From: Clostridia bacterium
GTDB taxonomy: Bacteria; Bacillota; Clostridia; Christensenellales; Aristaeellaceae
Length of the DNA: 37,893 nt
Reading direction: 5' to 3'
NCBI GenBank assembly: GCA_017476605.1
Contig: JAFUZM010000408.1
Coordinates: forward strand, 1 to 37,893
Made by a program: the position numbers and the translations under genes. Below the pieces are notes generated by a model. That model was not told the DNA's origin. It saw nothing but the letters and a program-made list of their open reading frames with translations, and did no database searches. Each line of letters opens with the position of its first letter. Position 1 is the stretch's first letter. Shown here in pieces: positions 3,000 through 36,697 of this stretch.

Positions 3000-3620
3000 T
3001 TACCTTCTTTCTACCGCACCTGCAGGACAGATGCTCAGACAGTTTCCACAATGCAGGCAGTGTTCCTGCTCAATCACATATGGAACGCTTCCTGTAAGAA
3101 TGCAGTTTTGCGGGCACGCGGTGGTGCAGCATCCACCGCCGATGCAGGCATCTGTAATGGCGTATCCTTCCGACTTCGTCTGTGCGCCACCGAAAGCAAA
3201 ATTGTCTCTCTGGATCGGCTTTTTTGAAAGGTCAAACCACTCACCACTGCCCTCGTAAATTTCAAAAGCCGTTAAGGCTTTCATTGCATCATCTGTGGGA
3301 TAGATCTCATGCATATAGGGATTCTTTTCAAACAGCTCAGGGATTTTATCATATCCAAGTTCTCTGACTTTGCCACGAACGGATACAGCAACGCTTGACA
3401 TGGTATCCGCACCCTTGATCGCTGTAAACGCAAGGAACTGTCGCTTGACCAGCCGGTCATAAAAGCCTTTTCCCTTTGCGGTCAAGAAGGTGAGGCTGTT
3501 CCCATCAGTATCCATCATGTCAATGGCGGCTGTGACAGGAAGCCCCTCGTCGTCAACGGTAGCGACGATTGTGGTATGGATTTCCCTGACGATGTAGTTC
3601 AGGTAGTCTTTTGCGGTCAA
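3000..3620 (-). CDS. FMN split-barrel (PNPOx-like) protein with C-terminal ferredoxin domain
   Basis: Residues 1-130 resemble the pyridoxamine 5'-phosphate oxidase-like split barrel, with [21 protein letters not shown] at the start and a central [15 protein letters not shown] segment. Residues 155-206 form a ferredoxin domain with Cys 159, 164/165, 169 and 173, followed by a classic CxxCxxCxxxCP set at 188, 191, 194 and 198. It probably moves electrons between FMN and iron-sulphur centres; the substrate is unknown. The start is TTG at 3618-3620, preceded by GGGAGG about 10 bases upstream. No ATG fits better. It sits 54 bases after the Rrf2 gene and directly before the truncated macrodomain gene, suggesting Rrf2 control and a link to redox state. 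Confidence 0.8.
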
Positions 3621-14248: not shown

Positions 14249-14480
14249 AATTCGAAACGCGATGAACGGGAAAAAGGCATGGAACGTCTTAAGAGAGCTG
14301 CCGGAGGGTGCAAGACAGCGACAGAACATGTGATAGCTCGCCCCGGAGCGGTTTGTGTGAAAGCATGAAACGTAATCCTGCGTTAAGGGAAAGAGATCAT
14401 TCTGCATGGCAGAGTGAAATCAGGGTGGTACCGTGTGGTCAATTACCTCACCCCTGCTTCGCAGGGGTGAGTTTTTTTAA
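14249..14480 (+). ncRNA. T-box riboswitch leader (apparent specifier AAC, asparagine)
   Basis: The leader has the order of T-box elements: AGAGAG with a GCTG/CAGC apical stem (14292-14319) and a CTC-GAG element (14337-14348). A stem III follows (CATTCTGC/GCAGAGTG, about 14398-14416). The T-box core AGGGTGGTACCGTG is at 14422-14435. A strong terminator, CTCACCCCTGC/GCAGGGGTGAG then seven Ts, spans 14447-14478. Uncharged tRNA should stabilise the antiterminator and allow readthrough into leuC. By alignment with the usual specifier-AGTA layout, the codon before GTAATCC is AAC (14369-14371), which is asparagine. The CTC at 14337-14339 belongs to the conserved CTC-GAG element and is an unlikely specifier. 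I aligned this by eye and did not fold stem I fully. Confidence 0.88.
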
Positions 14481-25489: not shown

Positions 25490-26074
25490 TCAGGAATAGG
25501 TCTGGATGATTTCGGTGGCAATCTCTTTTCGGGAAATGCAGCGATCCATCGCCTGCTTTTCAATATAGCGATGTGCCTGAGATTCTTCCATTTCCTTCTT
25601 TGAAATGAGGAGCCATTTGGCGCGGTTCACGAGGCGAATCTCCTCCATTTTTTCCTCAATGGACAGGGTTTTCTTTTCGGACTTTTTCTGGCGTTCCCTT
25701 GCGCTGGCCATCCAGTCAAAGCCAAGGGAAAGAAAAATGCGGTTCAGTGGACGAGCCATAACAAAGACGCCGTGTTCAATAACCTTCTCGCGGGTATCCT
25801 CCAATTGCTCTGCGCGAATCAAAAGCAAGACGGAGGCCCCGGAACCGGCAGCGATGTCGATGGCAAATCGGCTTCCGTCTCCATCCGGAAGCGGGGAGTT
25901 GATGATGACAAAATCAAAGCTTCGCTCGCTCCAGAGTCGCTTTGCGGCAGAAATGTCAGAGACAATCTGAACGGGACTGTACCGGGATTGCGGAAGCATG
26001 GACAGAAGAGCGGCATTCAGCTTTTCGTTAGATGATACCAAAAGGACGCTGTACATGCGTTCTTTTAAACTCAT
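25490..26074 (-). CDS. ANTAR-domain regulator with a degenerate receiver domain
   Basis: The 194-residue protein has a receiver-like N-terminal domain (1-115) and a C-terminal ANTAR RNA-binding domain (about 125-185). The latter includes EEIRLVNRAKWLLISKKEM and the HRYIEKQAMDRCISRKEIA helices. The receiver lacks the phosphorylation residues: the acidic pair is SSN (VLLVSSN), the acceptor site reads INSPLPDGDG with Asn in place of Asp, and the Lys is replaced by Arg (MARPL). It therefore probably does not work by Asp phosphorylation. ANTAR proteins stop transcription terminators in target leaders. Its gene is last in the split-glutamate-synthase operon, 33 bases after glutamine synthetase. The ATG at 26072-26074 has GAGG upstream; a GTG at 26095 has no ribosome binding site. 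Confidence 0.85.
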   Translation of the reverse strand: MSLKERMYSVLLVSSNEKLNAALLSMLPQSRYSPVQIVSDISAAKRLWSERSFDFVIINSPLPDGDGSRFAIDIAAGSGASVLLLIRAEQLEDTREKVIEHGVFVMARPLNRIFLSLGFDWMASARERQKKSEKKTLSIEEKMEEIRLVNRAKWLLISKKEMEESQAHRYIEKQAMDRCISRKEIATEIIQTYS

Positions 26075-26106
26075 AGGGGCCTCTTTCTCCTCCACTCATA
26101 ATGGCA

Positions 26107-27345
26107 TTATCTGTGAAGGTAGGCGGACAGAATTTCTTTGGGAAGGACTGCATTTATAAACGCGCTTGAAGCTGCAACATCACAGGCTTCTGCATAGGAT
26201 GCAGGGAGAGCCTCACATTGTCTCAGGAGCGCATCTGAAACGGAGGGGAGAGCATCTGCTGCCTCGGGCAGCATGAGCTTCTTCTCGACCCCATCTATCC
26301 CTGCATAGATCAATAGGGCGAGTGCAAGATATGGATTTGCAAGAGGGTCAGGGGAGCGAAGCTCTGCGCACATTGTATTACCGGGAACAGTGGGAATTCG
26401 AATAAGATGTGACCGTCTGTCTTTTGACCAGGAAAGAGTTCGCGGAGCTTTGTGATTTCCAAGGCGCAGATAAGATTCCCTGGATGGATTCAATAAGAGC
26501 GTCATTGCCCGAATGTTTGCAAGGATTCCAGCTGCCATGCTTAAGAAGGTGTGAGACTCAGTGGGTGAGGTAGAAGGAGTCAGTGAAAGCCCGACGGGAT
26601 TCAGGGATAGATGAATGCGAAAGCCGTTTCCTGGCATATTCTCAAGGGGTTTGGGCGAGAAACTGGCACTGAGACCGTTTCTGGCTGCGACGGTTTTTAC
26701 GACACGCTTAAAGACCTGGGCATGATCCGCAGCAAACAATGGATCGGCAAAGCGGAAATCAACCACATTCTGTCCGGGACCTTCCTCGTGATGAGAGCTT
26801 ACCGGCCGGATTCCCATTTGCTCAAGAGTCAGACAGATTTCGCGGCGGACGTTTTCGCCGCGATCCTCCGGCGCGATATCCATATAGCCAGCCTCATCGC
26901 AGGGGATGGAGGTGGGTTTTCCGGTCTCGTCCAGTTTGAAAAGGTAAAACTCCATTTCCTGCCCGATGGTAAAGGTATAGCCTTTTTCAGCAGCAAACGA
27001 GATGGCTTTCCTTAAATAGCTGCGTGTATCCGAGACAAAGGGGGCTCCATCCGGAGAGGTGATGGTGGACATCATCTGGACCACACGACCATGCTCCGGA
27101 CGCCATGGGAGCGGCATCAGGGTATCCGGTTCGGGATGGAGAAAAAGATCCCCATCAGAGATCTCGGAAAAGCCGGGGATGGCGGCGGCATCAAAAGGAA
27201 TGCCATATTCAAAGGCATGGGGCAGTTCATCCGGCATGATCGCAATATTCTTTTGATTTCCGAAAACATCTGAGAAGGCAAGACGAATAAACTTTACGTC
27301 CTCCTCCTGCATGTACTGAATGACCTCATCCTTTGAGTATTTCAT
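26107..27345 (-). CDS. Divergent, short glutamine synthetase (type I-like)
   Basis: This 412-residue protein has the glutamine synthetase fold: GQEMEFYLF with the catalytic glutamates, HHEEGPGQNVVDF, and the C-terminal CAELRSPDPLANPYLALA motif with the key Glu and Arg. Three signature positions differ. The usual FDGSSI loop reads FDAAAI, the metal-site MHIH-type segment reads FRIHLSL with Arg in place of the first His, and the glutamate-binding segment reads PSRESYLRLG. It may be a poor catalyst, a glutamine sensor, or specific for another amine. ATG 27343-27345 follows AAGGAGAGG. It lies between the GXGXG subunit gene and the ANTAR regulator. Confidence 0.87.
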   Translation of the reverse strand: MKYSKDEVIQYMQEEDVKFIRLAFSDVFGNQKNIAIMPDELPHAFEYGIPFDAAAIPGFSEISDGDLFLHPEPDTLMPLPWRPEHGRVVQMMSTITSPDGAPFVSDTRSYLRKAISFAAEKGYTFTIGQEMEFYLFKLDETGKPTSIPCDEAGYMDIAPEDRGENVRREICLTLEQMGIRPVSSHHEEGPGQNVVDFRFADPLFAADHAQVFKRVVKTVAARNGLSASFSPKPLENMPGNGFRIHLSLNPVGLSLTPSTSPTESHTFLSMAAGILANIRAMTLLLNPSRESYLRLGNHKAPRTLSWSKDRRSHLIRIPTVPGNTMCAELRSPDPLANPYLALALLIYAGIDGVEKKLMLPEAADALPSVSDALLRQCEALPASYAEACDVAASSAFINAVLPKEILSAYLHR

Positions 27346-27432
27346 AAAGACCTCTCCTTCGGGTACATTTGGATTCATTGATATGTCTGGCACCAGCTTC
27401 CAAGTGAAGTGATGCCATGGTTCCTGCAGGCA

Positions 27433-28152
27433 CTAATTGGCAACGTACATTTGGCGGTATGGGTTCGCTGTATCCGGGACAACAACGGTGAATGGAGCAG
27501 ACAGGACGGCCTCAATATCGAGAGCGAACAGGTCACAGTATTCGGTAAGATAGGAGCGAAGCTCCTCAAGATCGCCAGCGGTGGCGCGGCGAGATGTGAC
27601 CTGGGGTGGAAAAACAACATCGTCACAGGCTGAACGGAGGAACATTTTGCCGCCGTGCATACCGGTGCAGGGGAAGTATCCGACACATTTCTTTGCGGGA
27701 GCCAGCAGGTTGAGCACGATAATAATCCCACCTGCCTGATATTCGCCAAGGAAGCTGCCGGCTCTGCCCCCGATGATCATCAGCGGGACCTTTTCCTTGT
27801 AGGCTTTCATGTGAATGCCTGCACGGTATCCGGCGTTGCCTTTTACATAGATTTTTCCGCCACGCATGGCATAGCCTGCAGCATCCCCGATGCTTCCGTG
27901 AACCACGATGGTCCCCGCATTCATGGTATCCCCGACGGCATCCTGGACATTGGCATGCACCGTGATCCGTCCGCCGTTGAGATATGCCCCGAGTGCATTG
28001 CCGGGGACGCCATGAATTTCGATGTCCCGATCCGCCATGCCGGCTGCAATAAAGCGCTGGCCACAGCAGCCTTCAATGGTACAGGGCTCAGGGGAGCATC
28101 GAATCTGCTCATTTAACGTCCTGTGGTCAAGACCGTCTGCTTGTATGATCAT
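27433..28152 (-). CDS. Glutamate synthase GXGXG-domain subunit (GltB C-terminal part)
   Basis: The 239-residue protein is a right-handed beta-helix domain with repeated GG- and GN-turns (AYLNGGRITV, NAGTIVVHGSIGDAAGYAMRGG, YRAGIHMKAYK). This is the structural C-terminal domain of the large glutamate synthase subunit, here a stand-alone protein. The domain gives the enzyme rigidity and channelling. ATG 28150-28152 follows GGAGG by 11 bases. It directly follows the FAD oxidoreductase in the operon. Confidence 0.88.
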   Translation of the reverse strand: MIIQADGLDHRTLNEQIRCSPEPCTIEGCCGQRFIAAGMADRDIEIHGVPGNALGAYLNGGRITVHANVQDAVGDTMNAGTIVVHGSIGDAAGYAMRGGKIYVKGNAGYRAGIHMKAYKEKVPLMIIGGRAGSFLGEYQAGGIIIVLNLLAPAKKCVGYFPCTGMHGGKMFLRSACDDVVFPPQVTSRRATAGDLEELRSYLTEYCDLFALDIEAVLSAPFTVVVPDTANPYRQMYVAN

Positions 28153-28153
28153 A

Positions 28154-29383
28154 TTATACGACACCTCCGAACTTTTTTCTACGCTGGTCGGTGGAAAATG
28201 CAGCGGTTGTTGCACCCTGCATCATGAGAGGAAAATCAATGGAGGAAAGCGGGGTCTGCTCTCGGATCAAAGCGGTATAAATCCCGGCACGCTCATCACA
28301 GCCGATTAAGATAAAGCCCATGAGCCGGTCATCCTTTGTATAAAGGCGCTTCAGCGAATGATCCGTCCGGTTCTCATGCAGCTCGCCATCATACGAGCCG
28401 GCAGTCATGGCGTGGAGACCGAAAAAGCCTATGGCATTCATGGGAATACCCTTCTCAAAGGAAGCAGTGCCACCGGCCATATTGACGCCTGCGACGTATC
28501 CTTGCATGGAGGCGTTTGGTAATATGGCAAGGACCTTTCGCTGCCCGGAGGAGAGATCCATGCCCTCCGTACAGTCACCTGCGGCATAGATGTGCGCAAG
28601 AGAGGTTTGCATTTTATTGTCGACAAGGATTCCACGGTGAACGTCGCCGCCGATTTCACTTAGGAGTGCAGTGTTTGCCCGGACGCCGACAGCAAGGACG
28701 AGAATGTCAAAGTCCACCAGCTGCCCGCTGGTCATTACGGTACGATTGCCTGTAAACTCGGCAACGCTGTCACCAAGCAGGAAGGAAATTCCGTGCTGCT
28801 CCAGATGACGCTGCATGTACCCGGCACAGGTGCTATCCAGAATGCTGGACAGCACCCGATCTGCAAGGTCTGCGATCGTGATGGAGGAAACGCGACTTAA
28901 GAGCCCTTCTGCACATTTGAGCCCGATGAGTCCTGCCCCGATGATCAGGACGCGGGAATCCGGACGAATGGCCTTTTCAAGAGCGAGTGCATCATCCAGG
29001 GTCATGAAGGAAAACGGATGCTCTACGGTTTCAAGGCCTTTGAAGGCGGGAACGAAAGGGGAGGAGCCGGTTGCAAGGCAGAGCTCATCATAGGGAAGCA
29101 GGGCACCATCGCTTGTCTCTACGAGTCGCTCATCCTTTCGTATGTGGATTGCTTTGCCAAATACGACATGGCAGCCCATCCAGTCATAAAAGTCCGCATC
29201 GCGGTACTGCATACGCGCAAGGTCTGTTTTCCCCTCAAGATAATAGGAAATGAGGGGACGGCAATAAACAGGATGGGGCTCTTCTGAGATCACGGTAATC
29301 CTGCCTTCGGAATCCGTGCTGCGGATTCCCTCAATGCACCGGGCAGCGGCAACGCCGTTGCCGACAATGAGATACTGCTTCAT
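28154..29383 (-). CDS. NAD(P)/FAD-dependent oxidoreductase (glutamate synthase electron partner)
   Basis: The 409-residue protein has an N-terminal FAD-binding YLIVGNGVAAARC, a second NAD-binding RVLIIGAGLIGLKCAEGL, LCLATGSSP, and an IYAAGDCTE motif. This is the pattern of nitrite-reductase or rubredoxin-reductase-like oxidoreductases. In this cluster it probably feeds electrons from NAD(P)H to the FMN subunit through the 4Fe-4S protein. It starts at 29383 with a four-base overlap (ATGA) with the ferredoxin gene and ends two bases before the GXGXG gene. Confidence 0.88.
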   Translation of the reverse strand: MKQYLIVGNGVAAARCIEGIRSTDSEGRITVISEEPHPVYCRPLISYYLEGKTDLARMQYRDADFYDWMGCHVVFGKAIHIRKDERLVETSDGALLPYDELCLATGSSPFVPAFKGLETVEHPFSFMTLDDALALEKAIRPDSRVLIIGAGLIGLKCAEGLLSRVSSITIADLADRVLSSILDSTCAGYMQRHLEQHGISFLLGDSVAEFTGNRTVMTSGQLVDFDILVLAVGVRANTALLSEIGGDVHRGILVDNKMQTSLAHIYAAGDCTEGMDLSSGQRKVLAILPNASMQGYVAGVNMAGGTASFEKGIPMNAIGFFGLHAMTAGSYDGELHENRTDHSLKRLYTKDDRLMGFILIGCDERAGIYTALIREQTPLSSIDFPLMMQGATTAAFSTDQRRKKFGGVV

Positions 29384-29820
29384 ACGGCTTTCCCCCTTTC
29401 CTCATAGACAATGGCCCGGTTTGGACAGCCTTTGACACAGGCAGGCTCTTTGCATGTGTTCTTCAGGCAGAGCTCGCATTTCTGCATCACGCCGTTTTCG
29501 TTTGGTGCAAGCGCGCCATAGGGACAGACGAGAACGCAGGTCAGGCAGCCGACGCATTTGCTTTGGTCAACACAGATGACACCCTCTTTCATGGATAAGG
29601 CACCCGCGATGCAACTGACTGTACAGATCGGGTCCTGGCAATGCCGACAGGAAACGGCATAGGAGATCCGGTCATGGCTCTCGACATGAATGCGGGGATA
29701 GATGGGCTTTCCCTTCAGTGCCAGTACCATGTCGGTGAGTCCTGAGTTGGCAAAGGCACAATTGTATTCACACAGATGGCATCCAAGACACCATTCCTCA
29801 TTCACATACACACGTTTCAT
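29380..29820 (-). CDS. Four-cluster 4Fe-4S ferredoxin-type electron carrier
   Basis: The 146-residue protein has cysteine sets CLGCHLCEYNC, CRHCQDPICTVSC, CVGCLTCVLVCP and CELCLKNTCKEPACVKGCP, enough for four clusters as in HycB/DmsB-like subunits. It links the FAD oxidoreductase to the FMN subunit of glutamate synthase. ATG 29818-29820 has GGGGG upstream; the frame is open 39 bases further but without a better site. It starts four bases after the FMN subunit gene ends. Confidence 0.87.
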   Translation of the reverse strand: MKRVYVNEEWCLGCHLCEYNCAFANSGLTDMVLALKGKPIYPRIHVESHDRISYAVSCRHCQDPICTVSCIAGALSMKEGVICVDQSKCVGCLTCVLVCPYGALAPNENGVMQKCELCLKNTCKEPACVKGCPNRAIVYEERGKAV

Positions 29821-29824
29821 ATGC

Positions 29825-31327
29825 TTATTCCCCCGCATGTGAGATCCCGAGGATCTCAAGCTCTTTTTCGGTTAACCCGACACCCCGAAGCATCAGGCGG
29901 TTTCCGCGCAGCGATTCAATGGAGTTTATGCCCATGCCACCCATCAGCTCCATGATCTCATGCCGCCAGGCGGTCATGAGATGAATGAGACGGGTACTTC
30001 CGATTTCGGGATTGAGCCGCTTTACGAGATCCGGTCGCTGCGTGGCAATGCCCCAGTTGCACTTGCCTGTATGGCAGGTGCGGCAGAGATGACAGCCAAG
30101 GGCAAGGAGGGCAGCGGTTGCGATGTAGCAGGCATCTGCGCCGAGAGCAATGGCCTTCACGACGTCGGAGGCGCTGCGGATGGAACCGCCGACGACAAGG
30201 GATACGCTGTTGCGGATGCCCTCATCGCGCAGACGCTGATCCACGGCGGCCAGAGCCAGCTCAATGGGAATGCCCACGTTGTCGCGAATGCGGGTTGGCG
30301 CTGCGCCAGTGCCTCCGCGGAATCCGTCAATGGCGATGATGTCCGCCCCGCTTCTGGCGATGCCACTGGCAATGGCGGCAATGTTGTGGACAGCGGCCAC
30401 TTTTACAATGACCGGCTTACGATACTGTGTTGCCTCTTTGAGAGAAAAGACGAGCTGCCTCAGGTCCTCGATGGAATAGATATCATGATGAGGCGCTGGC
30501 GATATGGCGTCTGAGCCCTCCGGAATCATCCGGGTACGAGAGACGTCTCCCACGATTTTTGTTCCCGGAAGGTGTCCGCCGATGCCGGGCTTGGCGCCCT
30601 GGCCGATCTTGATTTCTATTGCAGCGCCGGCCTCAAGATAGTCCTCGTGAACGCCAAATCGCCCGCTGGCGACTTGGACGATGGTGTTGGGACCATAGGG
30701 ATAAAAGTCCTCATGGAGACCACCCTCACCGGTATTGTAAAGGATGCCCAGCTCGGTGGCGGCCCGTGCCAGTGAGGCATGGGCGTTATAGCTGATGGAT
30801 CCATAACTCATGGCGGAGAACATGACTGGCATGGAAAGGCTGAGCTGCGGTGGCAGATCACAAAGGAGCTGGCCGTGTTCCCGCAGGATCCGATCCGGCT
30901 TCTTCCCCAGGAATACCCGGGTTTCCATGGGCTCACGGAGCGGGTCAATGGAGGGGTTTGTCACCTGGGAAGCGTTGATCAGGATTTTATCCCAGTAGAC
31001 CGGGAGCGGCTTTGGGTTTCCCATGGAGGAGAGGAGCACGCCGCCACTGCCCGCCTGCTCATAGATTTCCCGGATGGTCTCCGTCTGCCAGTTTGCATTT
31101 TCCCGCAGGGTACAGTCGCTTTTTACGATCTTGAGCGCCCGCGTCGGGCACAGGGAGACGCAGCGCTGACAATTGACACATTTCGTTTCGTCGCTGATCA
31201 TCAATCCGCGTTCGGGGCTGTAGGCATGTACCTCATTGGCACATTGTCGCTCACAGACGCGACAGGCAATGCAGCGGTTTTCATTTCGAACCACTTCAAA
31301 TTCCGGATAAATGAAATCCACACCCAT
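29825..31327 (-). CDS. Glutamate synthase FMN-binding subunit with N-terminal ferredoxin domains
   Basis: This 500-residue protein has two ferredoxin motifs near its N-terminus (CIACRVCERQC and CVNCQRCVSLCP). A glutamate-synthase FMN barrel follows, with PVMFSAMSYGSISYNAH, GAKPGIGGHLPG, the GFRGGTGAAP loop and SLVVGGSIRSASDV. CHLCRTCHTGKCNWG supplies the [3Fe-4S] cluster. It is the central domain of GltB as a separate chain, as in archaeal and many clostridial enzymes. It reduces 2-oxoglutarate plus ammonia to glutamate. The ATG at 31325-31327 overlaps the stop of the amidotransferase gene (TGATG), so the two are coupled. Confidence 0.9.
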   Translation of the reverse strand: MGVDFIYPEFEVVRNENRCIACRVCERQCANEVHAYSPERGLMISDETKCVNCQRCVSLCPTRALKIVKSDCTLRENANWQTETIREIYEQAGSGGVLLSSMGNPKPLPVYWDKILINASQVTNPSIDPLREPMETRVFLGKKPDRILREHGQLLCDLPPQLSLSMPVMFSAMSYGSISYNAHASLARAATELGILYNTGEGGLHEDFYPYGPNTIVQVASGRFGVHEDYLEAGAAIEIKIGQGAKPGIGGHLPGTKIVGDVSRTRMIPEGSDAISPAPHHDIYSIEDLRQLVFSLKEATQYRKPVIVKVAAVHNIAAIASGIARSGADIIAIDGFRGGTGAAPTRIRDNVGIPIELALAAVDQRLRDEGIRNSVSLVVGGSIRSASDVVKAIALGADACYIATAALLALGCHLCRTCHTGKCNWGIATQRPDLVKRLNPEIGSTRLIHLMTAWRHEIMELMGGMGINSIESLRGNRLMLRGVGLTEKELEILGISHAGE

Positions 31328-32421
31328 CAATAAGCACCTTCTTTCACCTGGACGATGACGGGTTCTCCGCCGGATGGAGCCCAGATGTTTTCTACATTTG
31401 GCTCCATTGTGCGAATGGCTGCTTCCTCACTGGCAATATAGACGAGGTCACCCTTTTCGCCAACGACCATTGACCTCAGCTTGAGCCTGTCATTGAGGGC
31501 CATGAGTCCACCAGTAAACCCCAGGACAATGGAAAACGGGCCTGTAATCAGGAGGCTGGGGAACATCGTTCTGAGATAAACATGTTTCCGTTGTTCGTAT
31601 GGATCCCGCTCGCGTTCAATCGTGCTCCAAAACGGTGCGGCAACAACGTTAGCGGCCTCCGAAAGTGTCAGCCCCTGGATTCTGATCAGATAGTCCATAA
31701 TATAGGTAATGACTTCCGTATCGGTCTTGAGTGTGCACTTGTAGCCAAACATCTCAATAAACCGGCGGTTGGCATCATAGGAGGAGATTTCCCCATTATG
31801 GACAATGGAATAATCAAGCAGAGTAAAGGGATGCGCGCCACCCCACCATCCCGGAGTATTGGTCGGATAGCGGCCATGTGCTGTCCAGGAATACCCTTCA
31901 TATTCCTCAAGCCTGTAAAAGAGGCCAACATCCTCCGGGAACCCGACGGCCTTGAAGGTTCCCATATTCTTTCCACAGGAGAAGACATAGGCCCCTGCAA
32001 GTTCTGTATTGATTTTCATCACGGTGCGGACGACGAATTCCTTTTCGTCCAGCTGAAGGCTTCGAAGCACGGATGGAAGAGGTGTAATAAAATAACGCCA
32101 GATAATGGGCTCATCCGTGATCGTAGGCAGCTTTCTTGTGGGTATCTTTTCGGAGTGAACAATCTCGAAATGCTCCTTCAGAAATAACTCGCACTGCTTT
32201 CTTGTTTCCAGATTGTCAAAGAACAAATGGAAGGCGTAAAAGTCTTTATAGTCCGGATAAATGCCATATCCGGCAAATCCTCCGCCAAGACCGTTGGAGC
32301 GATCATGCATCGGCTTCATGGCCTCTATAATCCCTTCGCCGGTCATCCTGTTTCCGTCTTTTGAAATGACAGCCGCAATCGCGCATCCCGCTGGAATGCG
32401 AACCTGACCTTCTCTAACCAT
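31327..32421 (-). CDS. Glutamate synthase amidotransferase subunit (class II)
   Basis: The 364-residue protein is a class II glutamine amidotransferase. The N-terminal Cys13 (in IPAGCAIAAVISKDG) becomes the nucleophile if a 12-residue propeptide is cut. The segment GRYPTNTPGWWGGAHPFTLLDYSIVHNGEISSYD, quoted here only by its first residues GRYPTNTPGWWGG and NGEISSYD, is typical of GltB. It releases ammonia from glutamine for the FMN subunit. ATG 32419-32421 follows AAAGGAAGG. It is the first gene of the minus-strand nitrogen operon, under the attenuator at 32446-32490. Confidence 0.88.
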   Translation of the reverse strand: MVREGQVRIPAGCAIAAVISKDGNRMTGEGIIEAMKPMHDRSNGLGGGFAGYGIYPDYKDFYAFHLFFDNLETRKQCELFLKEHFEIVHSEKIPTRKLPTITDEPIIWRYFITPLPSVLRSLQLDEKEFVVRTVMKINTELAGAYVFSCGKNMGTFKAVGFPEDVGLFYRLEEYEGYSWTAHGRYPTNTPGWWGGAHPFTLLDYSIVHNGEISSYDANRRFIEMFGYKCTLKTDTEVITYIMDYLIRIQGLTLSEAANVVAAPFWSTIERERDPYEQRKHVYLRTMFPSLLITGPFSIVLGFTGGLMALNDRLKLRSMVVGEKGDLVYIASEEAAIRTMEPNVENIWAPSGGEPVIVQVKEGAY

Positions 32422-32445
32422 AGGGTTCCTTCCTTTCAAAAAAAT

Positions 32446-32490
32446 AAAGACGCCCATGGCCGCACGTGGGTGCGGTCAATGAACGCCTTT
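32446..32490 (-). terminator. Attenuator-like hairpin in the gltB-operon leader
   Basis: On the minus strand AAAGGCG pairs with CGTCTTT (one G-T wobble) around a perfect CCGCAC/GTGCGG inner stem (32460-32475). It is followed by ATTTTTTT. This strong intrinsic terminator lies inside the leader, between the promoter and the first start codon, so it must be read through when the operon is on. Confidence 0.7.
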
Positions 32491-32504
32491 GCTCATTTGC
32501 AAGC

Positions 32505-32533
32505 ATTATAGATATTTCGGTCTAATTCGTCAA
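32505..32533 (-). promoter_or_regulatory. Promoter of the split glutamate synthase operon
   Basis: On the minus strand TTGACG (32528-32533) and TATAAT (32505-32510, perfect) are separated by 17 bases. Confidence 0.75.
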
Positions 32534-32592
32534 TATATTCCTGAAAATTTTTGAAAATTTGCAAGATTTTTAAAAATTTCTTGCAAAATCTA

Positions 32593-32621
32593 TTGACAGC
32601 CATTTTTGTGGGCGCTATAAT
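32593..32621 (+). promoter_or_regulatory. Promoter of glnN-amtB
   Basis: TTGACA (32593-32598) and TATAAT (32616-32621), both perfect, are separated by 17 bases. Transcription would start near 32628, leaving a leader of about 160 bases. Confidence 0.8.
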
Positions 32622-32636
32622 TTGGGCCACAAAGGC

Positions 32637-32673
32637 AAGGGCGTCTTTGAGTGATTCACTCCGAGACGCTCTT
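32637..32673 (+). promoter_or_regulatory. First leader hairpin of glnN
   Basis: AAGGGCGTCT pairs with AGACGCTCTT and encloses a GAGTG-ATT-CACTC stem. A second small stem, TTCTCC/GGAGAA around ATTTTTTT, follows at 32673-32692. Its 5' arm GGGCGTCTTT is also found in the gltB-operon leader. Confidence 0.55.
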
Positions 32674-32708
32674 TCTCCATTTTTTTGGAGAAGAGAAAAA
32701 CGAATACA

Positions 32709-32758
32709 AAAAGGCAAAGGCGTCTTTTGTGAGTACACGAAAGAAGTCTTTGCCTTTT
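32709..32758 (+). terminator. Attenuator-like hairpin before glnN
   Basis: AAAAGGCAAAG (32709-32719) pairs with CTTTGCCTTTT (32748-32758). A CTTTTGTG/CACGAAAG stem lies inside, and a T-rich CTCATTCTTATTC follows. It ends about 30 bases before the start codon, after the GGAG site begins to form, so it may act as a terminator or a translation block. The words GGCAAAGGCGTCTTT repeat the first hairpin. Confidence 0.55.
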
Positions 32759-32786
32759 CTCATTCTTATTCAAAGGAGACAGAAAC

Positions 32787-34883
32787 ATGAGTACGGTATC
32801 GGATTATTTCGGAAGTTTGGTTTTTGATGACCGCGTGATGCGTTCTACGCTCTCTGCCGACGTGTATGCGTCCCTCAGGAAAACCATTGACGAGGGAAAA
32901 GAACTGGATATCGGCGTGGCCAACGCCGTCGCTGAGGCGATGAAAACCTGGGCGGTGTCAAAGGGTGCAACCCACTTCACGCATTGGTTCCAGCCGCTCA
33001 CCGGGATTACGGCAGAAAAACACGACAGCTTCATTTCACCGGCTCCGGATGGAAGCGTCATCATGGAGTTCTCCGGGAAAGAGCTGATCAAGGGTGAGCC
33101 GGATGCCTCCTCTTTCCCTTCCGGCGGCCTGCGTGCAACATTTGAAGCCAGAGGCTATACGGCCTGGGACCCAACTTCCTACGCCTTTATCAAAGGAAAG
33201 ACGCTCTGTATCCCCACCGCCTTCTGTTCCTATGGCGGGCATGCACTGGACAAGAAGACGCCGCTGCTGCGGTCCATGGAATCTCTCAGCAAGCAGGCGC
33301 TCCGTATCCTTCGTCTGTTTGGAAATGATACGGCAAAGCGCGTCGTCTCCTCTGTTGGACCGGAGCAGGAGTATTTCCTCATTACAAAGGAAATGTATGA
33401 TGCCAGACCGGATCTGCGCTTTACCGGACGGACCCTGTTCGGAGCAAAGCCGCCGAAGGGACAGGAGCTGGATGATCACTATTTCGGTGTCATAAAGCCA
33501 GGGGTTACGGCCTTTATGGAAGATCTCAATGATGAGCTCTGGAAGCTGGGAATCCTTGCCAAGACGGAGCATAACGAGGTTGCACCGGCGCAGCATGAGC
33601 TGGCTCCGATTTATACCACAACCAACGTCGCCACGGATCACAACCAGCTGACCATGGAGATCATGCAGAAAGTGGCGGCAAAGCATGGCCTTGTCTGTCT
33701 GCTCCATGAAAAGCCCTTTGCAGGCGTGAACGGCAGCGGAAAGCACTACAACTGGTCAATTGCCACCGATGGCGGACAGAACCTGCTTTCCCCGGGCGAT
33801 ACGCCACATGAGAATGCCCAGTTCCTGCTGTTCCTCTGCGCTGTCATCAAGGCAGTGGATGATTATCAGGATCTTCTGCGGATTTCCGTTGCCACAGCGG
33901 GCAACGATCATCGTCTCGGTGCAAACGAGGCACCGCCGGCCGTGATCTCCATCGTCCTCGGGGATGAACTGAATGCCGTCCTTGAAGCGATTGAAACGGA
34001 TACGCCGTATGCGGGCACCCGGCGGATGCAGATGAAGCTGGGTGTCGATGTCCTGCCAAAGTTTAACCGGGACACCACGGATCGCAACAGGACCTCTCCC
34101 TTTGCCTTTACCGGCAATAAATTCGAATTCCGCATGCTTGGGTCCTCCAACTCCATTGCCTGCGCAAACATCATGCTCAATGCCGCAGTCGCAGAGAGCC
34201 TGCGTATTTATGCGGACCGCCTTGAAAAGGCAGAGGATTTTGAAACCGCGCTGCATGAGATGATCAAGAAGACGATCAAGGATCATAAGCGGATCATCTT
34301 CAACGGAAACGGCTATGATGATGCGTGGATCAGGGAAGCAACGGAGGAACGCGGACTGCTCAATTACCGCACGACTGCAGACTGTATGCCGCATCTTCTG
34401 GATGAAAAGAACGTTAAGATGCTCACCTCTCTTGGCGTATTTACGGTGGACGAACTCAAATCCCGTCGCGACATCATGCTGGAGAACTACTGCAAGAGTG
34501 TCCTGATTGAGGCCAACACCATGATCAGCATGGTAAAGAGGAACATCGCGCCGGCGATTACCAGGTTCACGGCCGATCTGGCCAGGCAGGCTGCGGAAAA
34601 GAAGGCCATATTGCCGGGTCTTGCCTGCGGCTATGAGACAGGCCTTATCGAAACGCTCTCTGCACTGACGGACAGCATCGCAGCGAAAACGGAGGAACTT
34701 GAGACTGCGGTTACAGCCCTTGGCGATGAGGCGGATATCGTTGAGGAGGCGGCCAGGATTCGGGATACGATTCTGCCAAAGATGAGCGAACTGCGGATTC
34801 CCTGTGATGCGGCAGAGACGCTGACGGAAAAGAGCTACTGGCCGTTCCCGACCTACGGTGATCTTCTTTTCAGCGTGAAATAA
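32787..34883 (+). CDS. glnN: Type III glutamine synthetase (GlnN family)
   Basis: The 698-residue protein has the length and layout of GSIII, much longer than type I enzymes. It starts [14 protein letters not shown] and has the [10 protein letters not shown] metal-binding glutamates. It then has [35 protein letters not shown] with intact histidine, and [16 protein letters not shown]. The C-terminal extension (about 560-698) is helical and typical of the family. It forms glutamine from glutamate, ammonia and ATP. ATG 32787 follows AAAGGAG. The gene is divergent from the glutamate synthase operon, and its leader carries attenuator-like hairpins. It is followed by the ammonium channel. Confidence 0.94.
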
Positions 34884-34978: not shown

Positions 34979-36697
34979 ATGTCTGTTGAGTTTTGGTTTT
35001 TAATCGGTGCGGCGCTGGTCTTCTGGATGCAGGCCGGATTTGCGATGGTTGAAACGGGGTTTACTCGTGCGAAAAATGCCGGCAACATCATCATGAAAAA
35101 CCTGATGGATTTCTGCATCGGAACCGTTGTGTTTTCATTGCTTGGCTATACCCTGATGATGGGCGAGGATGCGCTTCTCGGGCTCATCGGCAAACCGAAT
35201 CTCAATCTGTTTCTGCATTTTAAGGAGTTTATTGCCTCTCCGGCAGAGGGCTTTACGGACGCCAGCTATTTCGTGTTCAACCTTGTGTTCTGCGCGACGA
35301 CGGCGACCATCGTCTCCGGTGCCATGGCAGAGCGGACAAAGTTTTCAGCCTACTGTGTCTATTCTGCAGTGATCAGCCTTGTCATCTATCCGATCGAGGC
35401 GCACTGGATCTGGGGCGGTGTCTGGCTTTCCCGCCTTGGTTTTCATGATTATGCCGGCTCCTGCGCCATTCACATGGTGGGCGGCATTGCGGCCTTAATC
35501 GGCGCAGCCGTTCTGGGTCCCCGCATCGGGAAATATGTAAGGGATAAGAGCGGCAAGGTCACAAAAGTCAATGCGATCCCCGGGCATTCGATTCCTCTTG
35601 GTGCCCTTGGTGTCTTCATTCTCTGGCTTGGCTGGTATGGCTTCAACGGAGCGGCAGCCACCACGGTTTCGGAGCTTTCCTCGATCTTTCTGACCACAAC
35701 GATTGCGCCCTCTGTTGCAACCTGCACCACAATGATCTATACCTGGATCAAGAACGGGAAGCCGGATGTTTCGATGTGTCTCAACGCCTCTCTGGCAGGT
35801 CTTGTTGCGGTCACTGCAGGCTGTGATGCATTTGATGCGATCGGTGCCTGCATCGTCGGCATTGTTGCAGGAATTCTCGTCGTGATCGTCGTTGAAGTGC
35901 TGGATCTGAGGCTCCACATTGACGATCCGGTGGGCGCGGTTGGCGTGCACTGTGCCAATGGCGTCTGGGGCACGATTGCGGTTGGCCTTCTGGCCAATCC
36001 GGATGCTCCGGCAGGTCTTCGTGGCCTTTTCTACACGGGCAGCTTTACACAGCTCGGAATTCAGCTCCTTGGCTTTATCTCAGTTGCTGCCTGGGCAACC
36101 CTCACGATGCTGGCATTCTTTGAAATTCTCAAAAAGATCGACTTCCTGAGGGCGGATCCTGTGGATGAACTGGCAGGACTTGACATCAGCGAACATGGCC
36201 TGCCCAGTGCCTATGCAGACTTCATGCTCACCGTTGACAACTATGCGGAATTTGGCACGGGTGAGCCAGCCGTCGCGGTTACCGGAACGACACCGGTGGC
36301 AGAGGCAGTCCCTGTCAGGAGAGAGCCTTCCTTTGACGGACACAAATTCACGAAGGTTGAAATCGTTTTCAAGGAAGAACGTCTGTTTGCTCTCAAGGAA
36401 GCCATGAACAAACTTGGCATTACGGGCATGACCGTTTCACACGTAATGGGCTATGGCATGCAGAAAGGACATACGGAATTTTATCGTGGCGTTGCCGTAG
36501 AAACGGATCTGCGGCCAAAGGTTCAGGTGGATATCGTTGTATCTGCCATCCCTGTACGTGATGTCATTGAGACGGCGAAAAAGGTGCTTTATACCGGTCA
36601 TATCGGTGATGGAAAGATCTTTGTCTATGATGTGGAGAACGTCGTGAAGGTCCGCACCGGTGAGGAAGGATACGATGCACTGCAGGATGTAGAGTGA
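34979..36697 (+). CDS. Ammonium channel AmtB fused to a C-terminal PII domain
   Basis: Residues 1-405 form an Amt channel with about 11 membrane helices and the twin-His motifs SCAIHMVGGIAAL and GVHCANGVWGT. It also has FWMQAGFAMVETGFTRAKN, typical of the N-terminal helix. A linker of about 50 residues leads to a PII domain (about 456-572): KVEIVFKEERLFALKEAM, then a T-loop with GHTEFYRG (Tyr502) and VYDVENVVKVRTGEEG. PII normally blocks AmtB as a separate protein; here it is tethered one-to-one. It starts with AAGGAGG and follows glnN by about 95 bases. A strong terminator follows. Confidence 0.93.
   Translation: MSVEFWFLIGAALVFWMQAGFAMVETGFTRAKNAGNIIMKNLMDFCIGTVVFSLLGYTLMMGEDALLGLIGKPNLNLFLHFKEFIASPAEGFTDASYFVFNLVFCATTATIVSGAMAERTKFSAYCVYSAVISLVIYPIEAHWIWGGVWLSRLGFHDYAGSCAIHMVGGIAALIGAAVLGPRIGKYVRDKSGKVTKVNAIPGHSIPLGALGVFILWLGWYGFNGAAATTVSELSSIFLTTTIAPSVATCTTMIYTWIKNGKPDVSMCLNASLAGLVAVTAGCDAFDAIGACIVGIVAGILVVIVVEVLDLRLHIDDPVGAVGVHCANGVWGTIAVGLLANPDAPAGLRGLFYTGSFTQLGIQLLGFISVAAWATLTMLAFFEILKKIDFLRADPVDELAGLDISEHGLPSAYADFMLTVDNYAEFGTGEPAVAVTGTTPVAEAVPVRREPSFDGHKFTKVEIVFKEERLFALKEAMNKLGITGMTVSHVMGYGMQKGHTEFYRGVAVETDLRPKVQVDIVVSAIPVRDVIETAKKVLYTGHIGDGKIFVYDVENVVKVRTGEEGYDALQDVE

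Follow-up and report, generated by a model that had tools for sequence, protein, structure and literature searches.

How are the two divergent nitrogen operons on a contig of a Clostridia bacterium controlled? The contig (JAFUZM010000408.1 of assembly GCA_017476605.1) was analyzed from position 1 to 37,893, and this whole stretch of 37,893 nucleotides (nt) is called the window below. The source assembly comprises 5.04 Mb in 409 contigs and is 92.9% complete and 7.6% contaminated. In the window, an intergenic region separates a minus-strand operon, which encodes a split glutamate synthase, a glutamine-synthetase-like (GS-like) protein and an ANTAR protein, from a plus-strand pair of genes for a type III glutamine synthetase (GSIII) and an ammonium transporter (Amt) with a P-II domain. 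A sequence-only reading of this DNA had proposed that one ANTAR regulator controls both operons by antitermination, and the comparative evidence supports this idea. We infer a single regulator because hexaloops occur in both leaders, these hairpins exclude terminators, they are conserved beside the ANTAR operon and the genome holds one ANTAR match. From sequence comparison, we consider it highly probable that the two leaders act as transcription attenuators and that the ANTAR protein encoded in the operon itself operates them. This confidence covers the attenuator and not the sensor step considered further below for the GS-like protein.

Hexaloop hairpins and competing terminators in the two leaders

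The sequence-only reading had described near-consensus promoters, hairpins in both leaders and 10-base words common to both, and all three observations were confirmed. The promoter of the GSIII-Amt operon (32593..32621, plus strand) reads TTGACA-17-TATAAT (12/12 matches to consensus) and that of the GltS/GS-like/ANTAR operon (32505..32533, minus strand) reads TTGACG-17-TATAAT (11/12). Each shared word has two copies in the window: GGGCGTCTTT at 32446-32455 (minus) and 32639-32648 (plus), with 0.07 expected, and GCAAAGGCGT at 32483-32492 (minus) and 32714-32723 (plus), with 0.06 expected. Folding of both leaders was more stable than that of dinucleotide shuffles (200 for each region), with z = -9.0 for the plus leader (32628-32770) and z = -4.2 (32430-32506) or -3.6 (32424-32500) for the minus leader. 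The minimum free energy (MFE) folds contained long interrupted stems. Because the stems are interrupted, scanning the leaders with a simple terminator pattern gave no match.

The same reading had missed hexaloops with A at position 1 and G at position 4 (A1/G4). Three such loops do exist in the leaders, canonical at both positions, and the word GCAAAGGCGT is one such loop, AAAGGC, plus its two closing pairs. The minus leader contains a single hexaloop hairpin, AATGAGC[AAAGGC]GTTCATT (32478..32497, loop 32485-32490), placed at what would be the 5' end of the transcript. The plus leader contains two, CAAAGGC[AAGGGC]GTCTTTG (32630..32649, loop 32637-32642) and AAAAGGC[AAAGGC]GTCTTTT (32709..32728, loop 32716-32721). 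Each of the three has a 7-bp stem and a loop closed by C-G. They thus show the A1 and G4 hexaloop and conserved closing pair of an ANTAR target RNA, which are kept in relatives. As a control, the 367-nt intergenic region was shuffled 2000 times. The three C-closed A1/G4 hexaloops with seven pairs compare with a shuffle mean of 0.01 and a maximum of 1. The rest of the 37.9-kb window has four hairpins of the same loose description, with loops and stems unlike those of the leaders. The core RGCAANGGCGTYY matched 14 times in the 5.04-Mb genome, and the three matches with a stem of at least six pairs were the three leader hairpins.

The hairpins compete with terminators. In the minus leader, an intrinsic terminator formed by AAAGGCGTTCAT ... 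ATGGGCGTCTTT (32438..32490, U tract 32438-32445) shares the loop and right arm of the antiterminator; the MFE was -25.6 kcal/mol versus -16.2 kcal/mol with the antiterminator enforced. The first terminator-form hairpin of the plus leader (32638..32672) is followed by a moderately U-rich tract and reached -31.4 kcal/mol versus -22.4 kcal/mol with the antiterminator enforced. For the second (32710..32757), which ends in CTTTGCCTTTT and has a U-rich tail, the values were -31.1 and -11.5 kcal/mol. In the window, each antiterminator hairpin excludes its own terminator. As judged by sequence and folding, the leaders hold, ahead of the gene, an antiterminator that excludes an intrinsic terminator, as an attenuator does. 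The first gene of the minus operon probably starts at the ATG at 32421, after GAAAGGAAGG, rather than at the ATG at 32457, which lies within the terminator.

Conservation, covariation and linkage to the ANTAR family

A search with the ANTAR protein gave 80 relative loci, mostly from Clostridia and mostly metagenome-assembled, some of them near relatives of one another. A later set added 40 further regions; three of these (L158, L160 and L164) repeat earlier loci (L023, L025 and L049), leaving 37 non-repeated regions. Where the flanks reach, the gene order is widely kept, with GSIII, often together with Amt, divergent from glutamate synthase, GS-like and ANTAR genes. Some relative loci are without glutamate synthase. 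Across the leaders of glutamate synthase (GltS), the sequence AAATGAGC[AARGGN]GTTCATTT was nearly unchanged. Scoring of arms and pairing without regard to the loop gave a match in 32/34 GltS, 35/40 GSIII and 3/20 GS-like leaders (window included), and A1 and G4 were present together in 32/36 and 46/49 matches. We also used a fixed rule (loop AANGRN, closing C-G, first four pairs). With the window and the three repeats excluded, a site was found in 36/37 GltS, 44/49 GSIII and 12/39 GS-like leaders, and 22/49 GSIII leaders had at least two sites. With these included, the counts were 38/39, 46/51 and 12/40, and 24/51 GSIII leaders had at least two.

The position of the hairpin was also conserved. 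In 28/32 GltS leaders with a site (window included), the 7-bp stem begins 7 nt after the -10 hexamer. Therefore, the hairpin would lie at about +1 of the transcript. In GSIII leaders, the distance from the -10 hexamer to the stem was mostly longer and more variable. The terminator form was the MFE fold at 32/32 GltS sites, all with five or more U in the following ten positions, with a mean energy of -34.3 kcal/mol versus -17.2 kcal/mol with the antiterminator enforced and a mean z of -7.6 (n = 32, window included). At GSIII sites it was the MFE fold in 43/46 cases, and 34 of these 43 had a U-rich tail (window included). In two relatives (L061:7569-7606 and L043:3425-3464), opposite-strand hexaloop sites face each other about 40 nt apart, apparently since both arms of one terminator bear the repeat.

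We corroborated the two competing folds by covariation. Of the 37 listed GltS leaders, 36 were aligned (L056 was omitted) and one row is a repeat, which leaves 35 distinct leaders without the window. Terminator pairs were formed in 96.5% of cells versus at most 62% when the alignment was slid, and antiterminator pairs in 97.5% versus at most 49%. The terminator showed nine two-sided changes versus 1.8 in shuffles, and 0/500 shuffles reached this number. Loop positions 3 and 6 covary with the terminator arm, and A1, A2, G4 and G5 are invariant. We read the frozen positions beside the covarying ones as the mark of a second constraint, which would be recognition by a protein. Over 167 distinct sites from all leaders, the antiterminator showed 142 two-sided changes versus a shuffled mean of 60.9 and a maximum of 82; only the loop and the closing pair, and not the remainder of the stem, served to select these sites, and relatedness and the presence of two site types inflate the count. 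The antisense of the leaders was rejected as a pairing control, as its result (five pairs in 86/167 versus 110/192) reflects divergent leaders lying on each other's antisense. Slid and shuffled controls were used in its place. With a covariance model built without the window (R1), the minus leader was the best match genome-wide (E = 9.1e-6; E = 6.8e-8 in the window). Two further weak genome-wide matches, on contigs C397 and C10, resemble ordinary gene-end terminators and were set aside.

The motif also follows the ANTAR family. The exact motif AAAGGCAANGRNGTCTTT was present in 19/291 genomes of the class. It occurred in 12/16 genomes with an ANTAR protein at least 49% identical versus 7/275 others, a cut-off picked after the scores were seen, with one of the 16 ANTAR proteins split over two contigs. 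In G276, one of the 12, the exact match lies at a gene that looks unrelated, and the GSIII leader bears a variant site. When ten relatives were searched whole, the short motif matched 35 times and the reversed control 2 times. With a single exception, the matches lay on one contig per genome, which we take, judging from the spacing, to be that of the nitrogen island. Other genes found behind sites (NCBIfam) were glutamate dehydrogenase (gdhA), PurC, PurA, GuaA, PyrG, NadE, asparagine synthase B (asnB) and type I GlnA, and a GatD-like amidotransferase that scored below its cut-off. In the window's own genome, scans with the core, exact and relaxed motifs and with R1 found only the island sites. 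The relaxed motif with up to two mismatches matched 33 times versus 32 for the reversed control, and information therefore comes from the two exact island sites alone.

The ANTAR protein, its GS-like neighbor and the other genes

As the sequence-only reading had it, the minus operon ends with an ANTAR gene (25490..26095; PF03861 E = 2e-14, 53.5 bits versus a curated cut-off of 27.3). It was the only PF03861 match in the genome search. The protein, the proposed antiterminator, joins an ANTAR domain to a pseudo-receiver. The phospho-accepting Asp of an EutV-type receiver is replaced by Asn (Asn66) in the window and by Asn in 79/80 relatives, with Cys in one. Among the further regions, Asn was found in 36/38 scored (33/35 without the three repeats), Asp in L178 and Gly in L197.

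The GS-like gene (26107..27393, minus) lies immediately upstream of the ANTAR gene in 73/81 copies. Of the eight exceptions, seven start within 170 nt of the end of the locus and one is the second ANTAR copy in L013. This locus has two ANTAR genes of the window's family near each other (47-634 and 3168-3449), the second being a partial match. In the further non-repeated regions, the GS-like gene was directly upstream in 37/37, with ANTAR identities of 27 to 59% where scored.

The GS-like protein of the window has lost catalytic residues. We take the flap Glu to be E327 in Salmonella numbering, and the roles and numbering of the catalytic and metal residues are likewise assumed here. In the first set, Lys replaces the flap Glu in the window and 71/72 relatives and Arg replaces it in the remaining one; all 73 proteins have Pro for the Asn of NGSGMH. 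At the metal sites, a Glu and the His are kept in 69/72 and 71/72 relatives, and only in the window copy are they Val and Arg. It thus has neither the flap Glu nor the complete metal ligands of a type I glutamine synthetase, and its GlnA equivalog score was 303 versus a cut-off of 429. The 37 further partners were more varied, with flap Lys in 19, Glu in 11 and other residues in 7, and the NGSGMH Asn was kept only in L195 and L196. These two loci (genomes G150 and G194) have apparently full type I glutamine synthetase (glnA) genes followed by an ANTAR gene, and their leader contains an 11-bp hexaloop hairpin with the core GAAAGGC[AATGGG]GTCTTTC and no U-rich terminator in view. This layout is perhaps an ancestral arrangement, or perhaps translational control. 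The GS-like gene is the only GSI-type match in the window's genome, beside two GSIII genes. The second of these (G000:C196:2318-2722, a 697-amino-acid (aa) frame) has no hexaloop site listed near it on its contig. The GS-like gene adjoins the ANTAR gene, its product has lost catalytic residues and the receiver has no phospho-Asp. Therefore, by analogy, we propose glutamine sensing as the role of the GS-like protein, which would control its ANTAR neighbor by contact.

The remaining genes of the minus operon encode the split glutamate synthase. These are a GXGXG-domain protein (27433..28215), a pyridine-nucleotide-disulphide oxidoreductase (28154..29383), a 4Fe-4S ferredoxin-like subunit (29380..29859), an FMN/ferredoxin-domain subunit (29825..31330) and, as gene 1 of the operon, the amidotransferase subunit GltS-N (31327..32421, with the reassigned start). 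On the plus strand, GSIII is gene 1 (32787..34883; GSIII_N 8.5e-80), followed by the ammonium transporter with its C-terminal P-II domain (34979..36697). The fusion of Amt to P-II is a possible additional nitrogen-sensing input. A T-box leader at 14253-14458 (plus; 97.4 bits, above the Rfam gathering score) is the sole Rfam match in the window and is unrelated to the attenuators.

Proposed mechanism, rival explanations and known systems

Based on these observations, the following mechanism is proposed. Transcription would start at or just before a 20-nt hairpin with the hexaloop A-A-N-G-(G/A)-N. By default, the loop and right arm of this hairpin would pair downstream to form the intrinsic terminator, and transcription would stop before the gene. 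An active ANTAR dimer would bind the hexaloop and stabilize the antiterminator hairpin, resulting in read-through. On the minus strand, read-through would lead to expression of glutamate synthase, GS-like and ANTAR, and on the plus strand of GSIII and Amt/P-II, here via two switches in series. Read-through would occur at nitrogen limitation, a direction suggested by analogy with NitR of Clostridium saccharobutylicum, whose gene adjoins glnA. We are less sure of the step in which the catalytically defective GS-like protein would sense glutamine and hold or release the pseudo-receiver ANTAR protein, as AmiC does with AmiR.

Several observations weigh against this mechanism. A site is missing from 27/39 GS-like and 5/49 GSIII leaders, and the first plus-leader terminator has only a moderate U tract. 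R1 scored the plus-leader sites weakly in the window (E = 0.024 for the second hairpin and 0.52 for the first). The rows for covariation were chosen with the loop AANGRN, and the invariance of A1, A2 and G4 is partly selection, with 36/37 leaders matching AANGRN. The GltS antiterminator stem shows one-sided changes and no two-sided ones, and pairing there rests on conservation. Among the exact-motif genomes, seven have no close ANTAR protein; six of these have some ANTAR and G043 none. Some exact matches look like chance: L124 lies at a gene that looks unrelated, for L113 and L125 no reading frame of at least 60 aa begins within 400 nt, and the reversed motif pattern also matches occasionally. 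Contacts to the loop may differ as well. Tyr164 of EutV stacks on loop G4. Its position is taken by His175 in the window, as placed by spacing to the conserved Met and by alignment to 1s8n, and by His in 79/80 relatives; Met183 is invariant.

The leaders could be controlled in other ways. In the excerpts of two papers (PMC3369931, PMC8934654), from which we also cite below, the textbook ANTAR target has two hairpins joined by a linker of 5-12 nt; EutV requires both, and altered linkers fail. The EutV structure paper (PMC8934654) makes the case that a single hexaloop is the smallest ANTAR target, states that EutV attenuation requires a second, recruiting hairpin at a fixed short distance upstream, and flags the role of single hexaloops as needing work. 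The sequence-only reading had spoken of paired leaders and of an ANTAR family that binds paired hairpins. The hairpins here are not paired in the manner of EutV, as there is one hexaloop per terminator. A further C-closed A1/G4 hexaloop in the roughly 40 nt 3' of the first was found at 0/39 GltS, 1/64 GSIII and 0/7 GS-like sites (window and one repeated locus included) in a scan that had no dual-hairpin positive control. In the same scan, the A/G loop class with any closing pair was not enriched over other loop classes. Two hexaloops with a linker of about 5-12 nt are thus not what the leaders contain. The window's GSIII leader does have two, albeit at a distance of 79 nt, and a separate terminator form belongs to each. 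A canonical target could still have been overlooked if the nearby second hexaloop had a weak stem or a loop departing from A1/G4, and the two-hairpin targets of the literature speak for this. We consider it unlikely, given the scan and given that a GltS hairpin starting at about +1 leaves no room upstream. In the defining feature examined here, the element differs from the dual-hairpin motif, yet it very likely works like an ANTAR attenuator; one hexaloop per terminator would suffice.

A more distant alternative is that the hairpins are terminators controlled by a riboswitch ligand, a tRNA or another RNA-binding protein, with the ANTAR gene as an incidental neighbor. ANTAR binding to the leaders is a prediction from sequence, and motif-bearing genomes without a close ANTAR protein exist. 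We regard this alternative as very improbable. At gathering scores, the Rfam scan of the window placed no family, riboswitch or T-box, in the leaders, and a permissive scan of 32300-32900 (to E 10) gave only matches far below gathering scores and no plausible riboswitch. In the literature, A1/G4 hexaloops are the signature of ANTAR targets, and their occurrence follows that of the window's ANTAR family. A further rival touches the sensor step only, and here we are much less certain. The GS-like protein may be a working ligase for ammonia or another amine, with the ANTAR protein sensing via the P-II domain of Amt or via GSIII. Most family members retain metal ligands, a flap Glu is present in 11 of the 37 further partners, two (L195 and L196) resemble complete glutamine synthetases, and an Amt-P-II fusion lies within the same island. 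The near-uniform flap and NGSGMH substitutions of the first set speak against a ligase, as do the altered metal sites of the window copy and its standing as the only GSI-type gene beside two for GSIII. We give this rival a substantial chance, somewhat below even.

The attenuators operated by the ANTAR protein may belong to a wider glutamine-sensing system across Clostridia. A dead glutamine synthetase would hold a phosphorylation-independent ANTAR protein when glutamine is plentiful. Once released, the ANTAR protein would act on single +1 hexaloops and coordinate ammonia assimilation (GltS, GSIII, glutamate dehydrogenase and Amt) with nitrogen-consuming steps (PurC, PurA, GuaA, PyrG, AsnB and NadE). 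This picture is tentative, and we think it rather more likely to need revision than to hold as a whole. Natural attenuators that seemingly have one hexaloop at the 5' end make the single-hexaloop question directly testable. An ANTAR family paired with glutamine synthetase relatives, ranging from apparently full to clearly degenerate, suggests a route from enzyme to sensor of an RNA regulator. The same pairing suggests how glutamine supply could be coupled to nucleotide synthesis.

ANTAR control of nitrogen genes is already in print, and the idea of the sequence-only reading is therefore not new in kind. In open-licence PMC papers, we found no report of single-hexaloop attenuators, of +1 placement, of nucleotide-synthesis targets or of a degenerate glutamine synthetase as partner of an ANTAR protein. 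The closest relative in mechanism is EutV of the eut genes in Enterococcus faecalis, with an ANTAR output domain and A1/G4 hexaloop hairpins exclusive with an intrinsic terminator (PMC3369931, PMC8934654). In contrast to EutV, the leaders here have one hexaloop per terminator, at the presumed 5' end and without a 5-12-nt linker to a partner hairpin, the receiver has no phospho-Asp, and the neighbor is a GS-like protein and not a histidine kinase. In function, the system resembles NitR of Clostridium saccharobutylicum, an ANTAR protein which acts as antiterminator of GS/GOGAT genes under nitrogen limitation, according to excerpts of a review (PMC6316151). Ramesh et al. 2012 (PMC3369931) predicted ANTAR targets before glutamate synthase genes, for example in Desulfotomaculum, and also before genes for P-II, ammonium transporter and glutamine synthase. 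Their regulons were found with a dual-hairpin model, and the excerpts of that paper make no mention of gdhA, purC, purA, pyrG, guaA, nadE and asnB. As to the sensor, AmiR is an ANTAR protein with a pseudo-receiver held by its partner AmiC (PMC8934654), and NasT is an RNA-binding protein freed from NasS on nitrate (excerpts of PMC3795266). In contrast to both pairs, the partner proposed here is a degenerate glutamine synthetase. A glutamine synthetase that acts as nitrogen sensor and holds a regulator is described for TnrA of Bacillus subtilis (PMC6316151). TnrA binds DNA and its glutamine synthetase is active, whereas we propose an RNA-binding antiterminator held by a catalytically defective relative.

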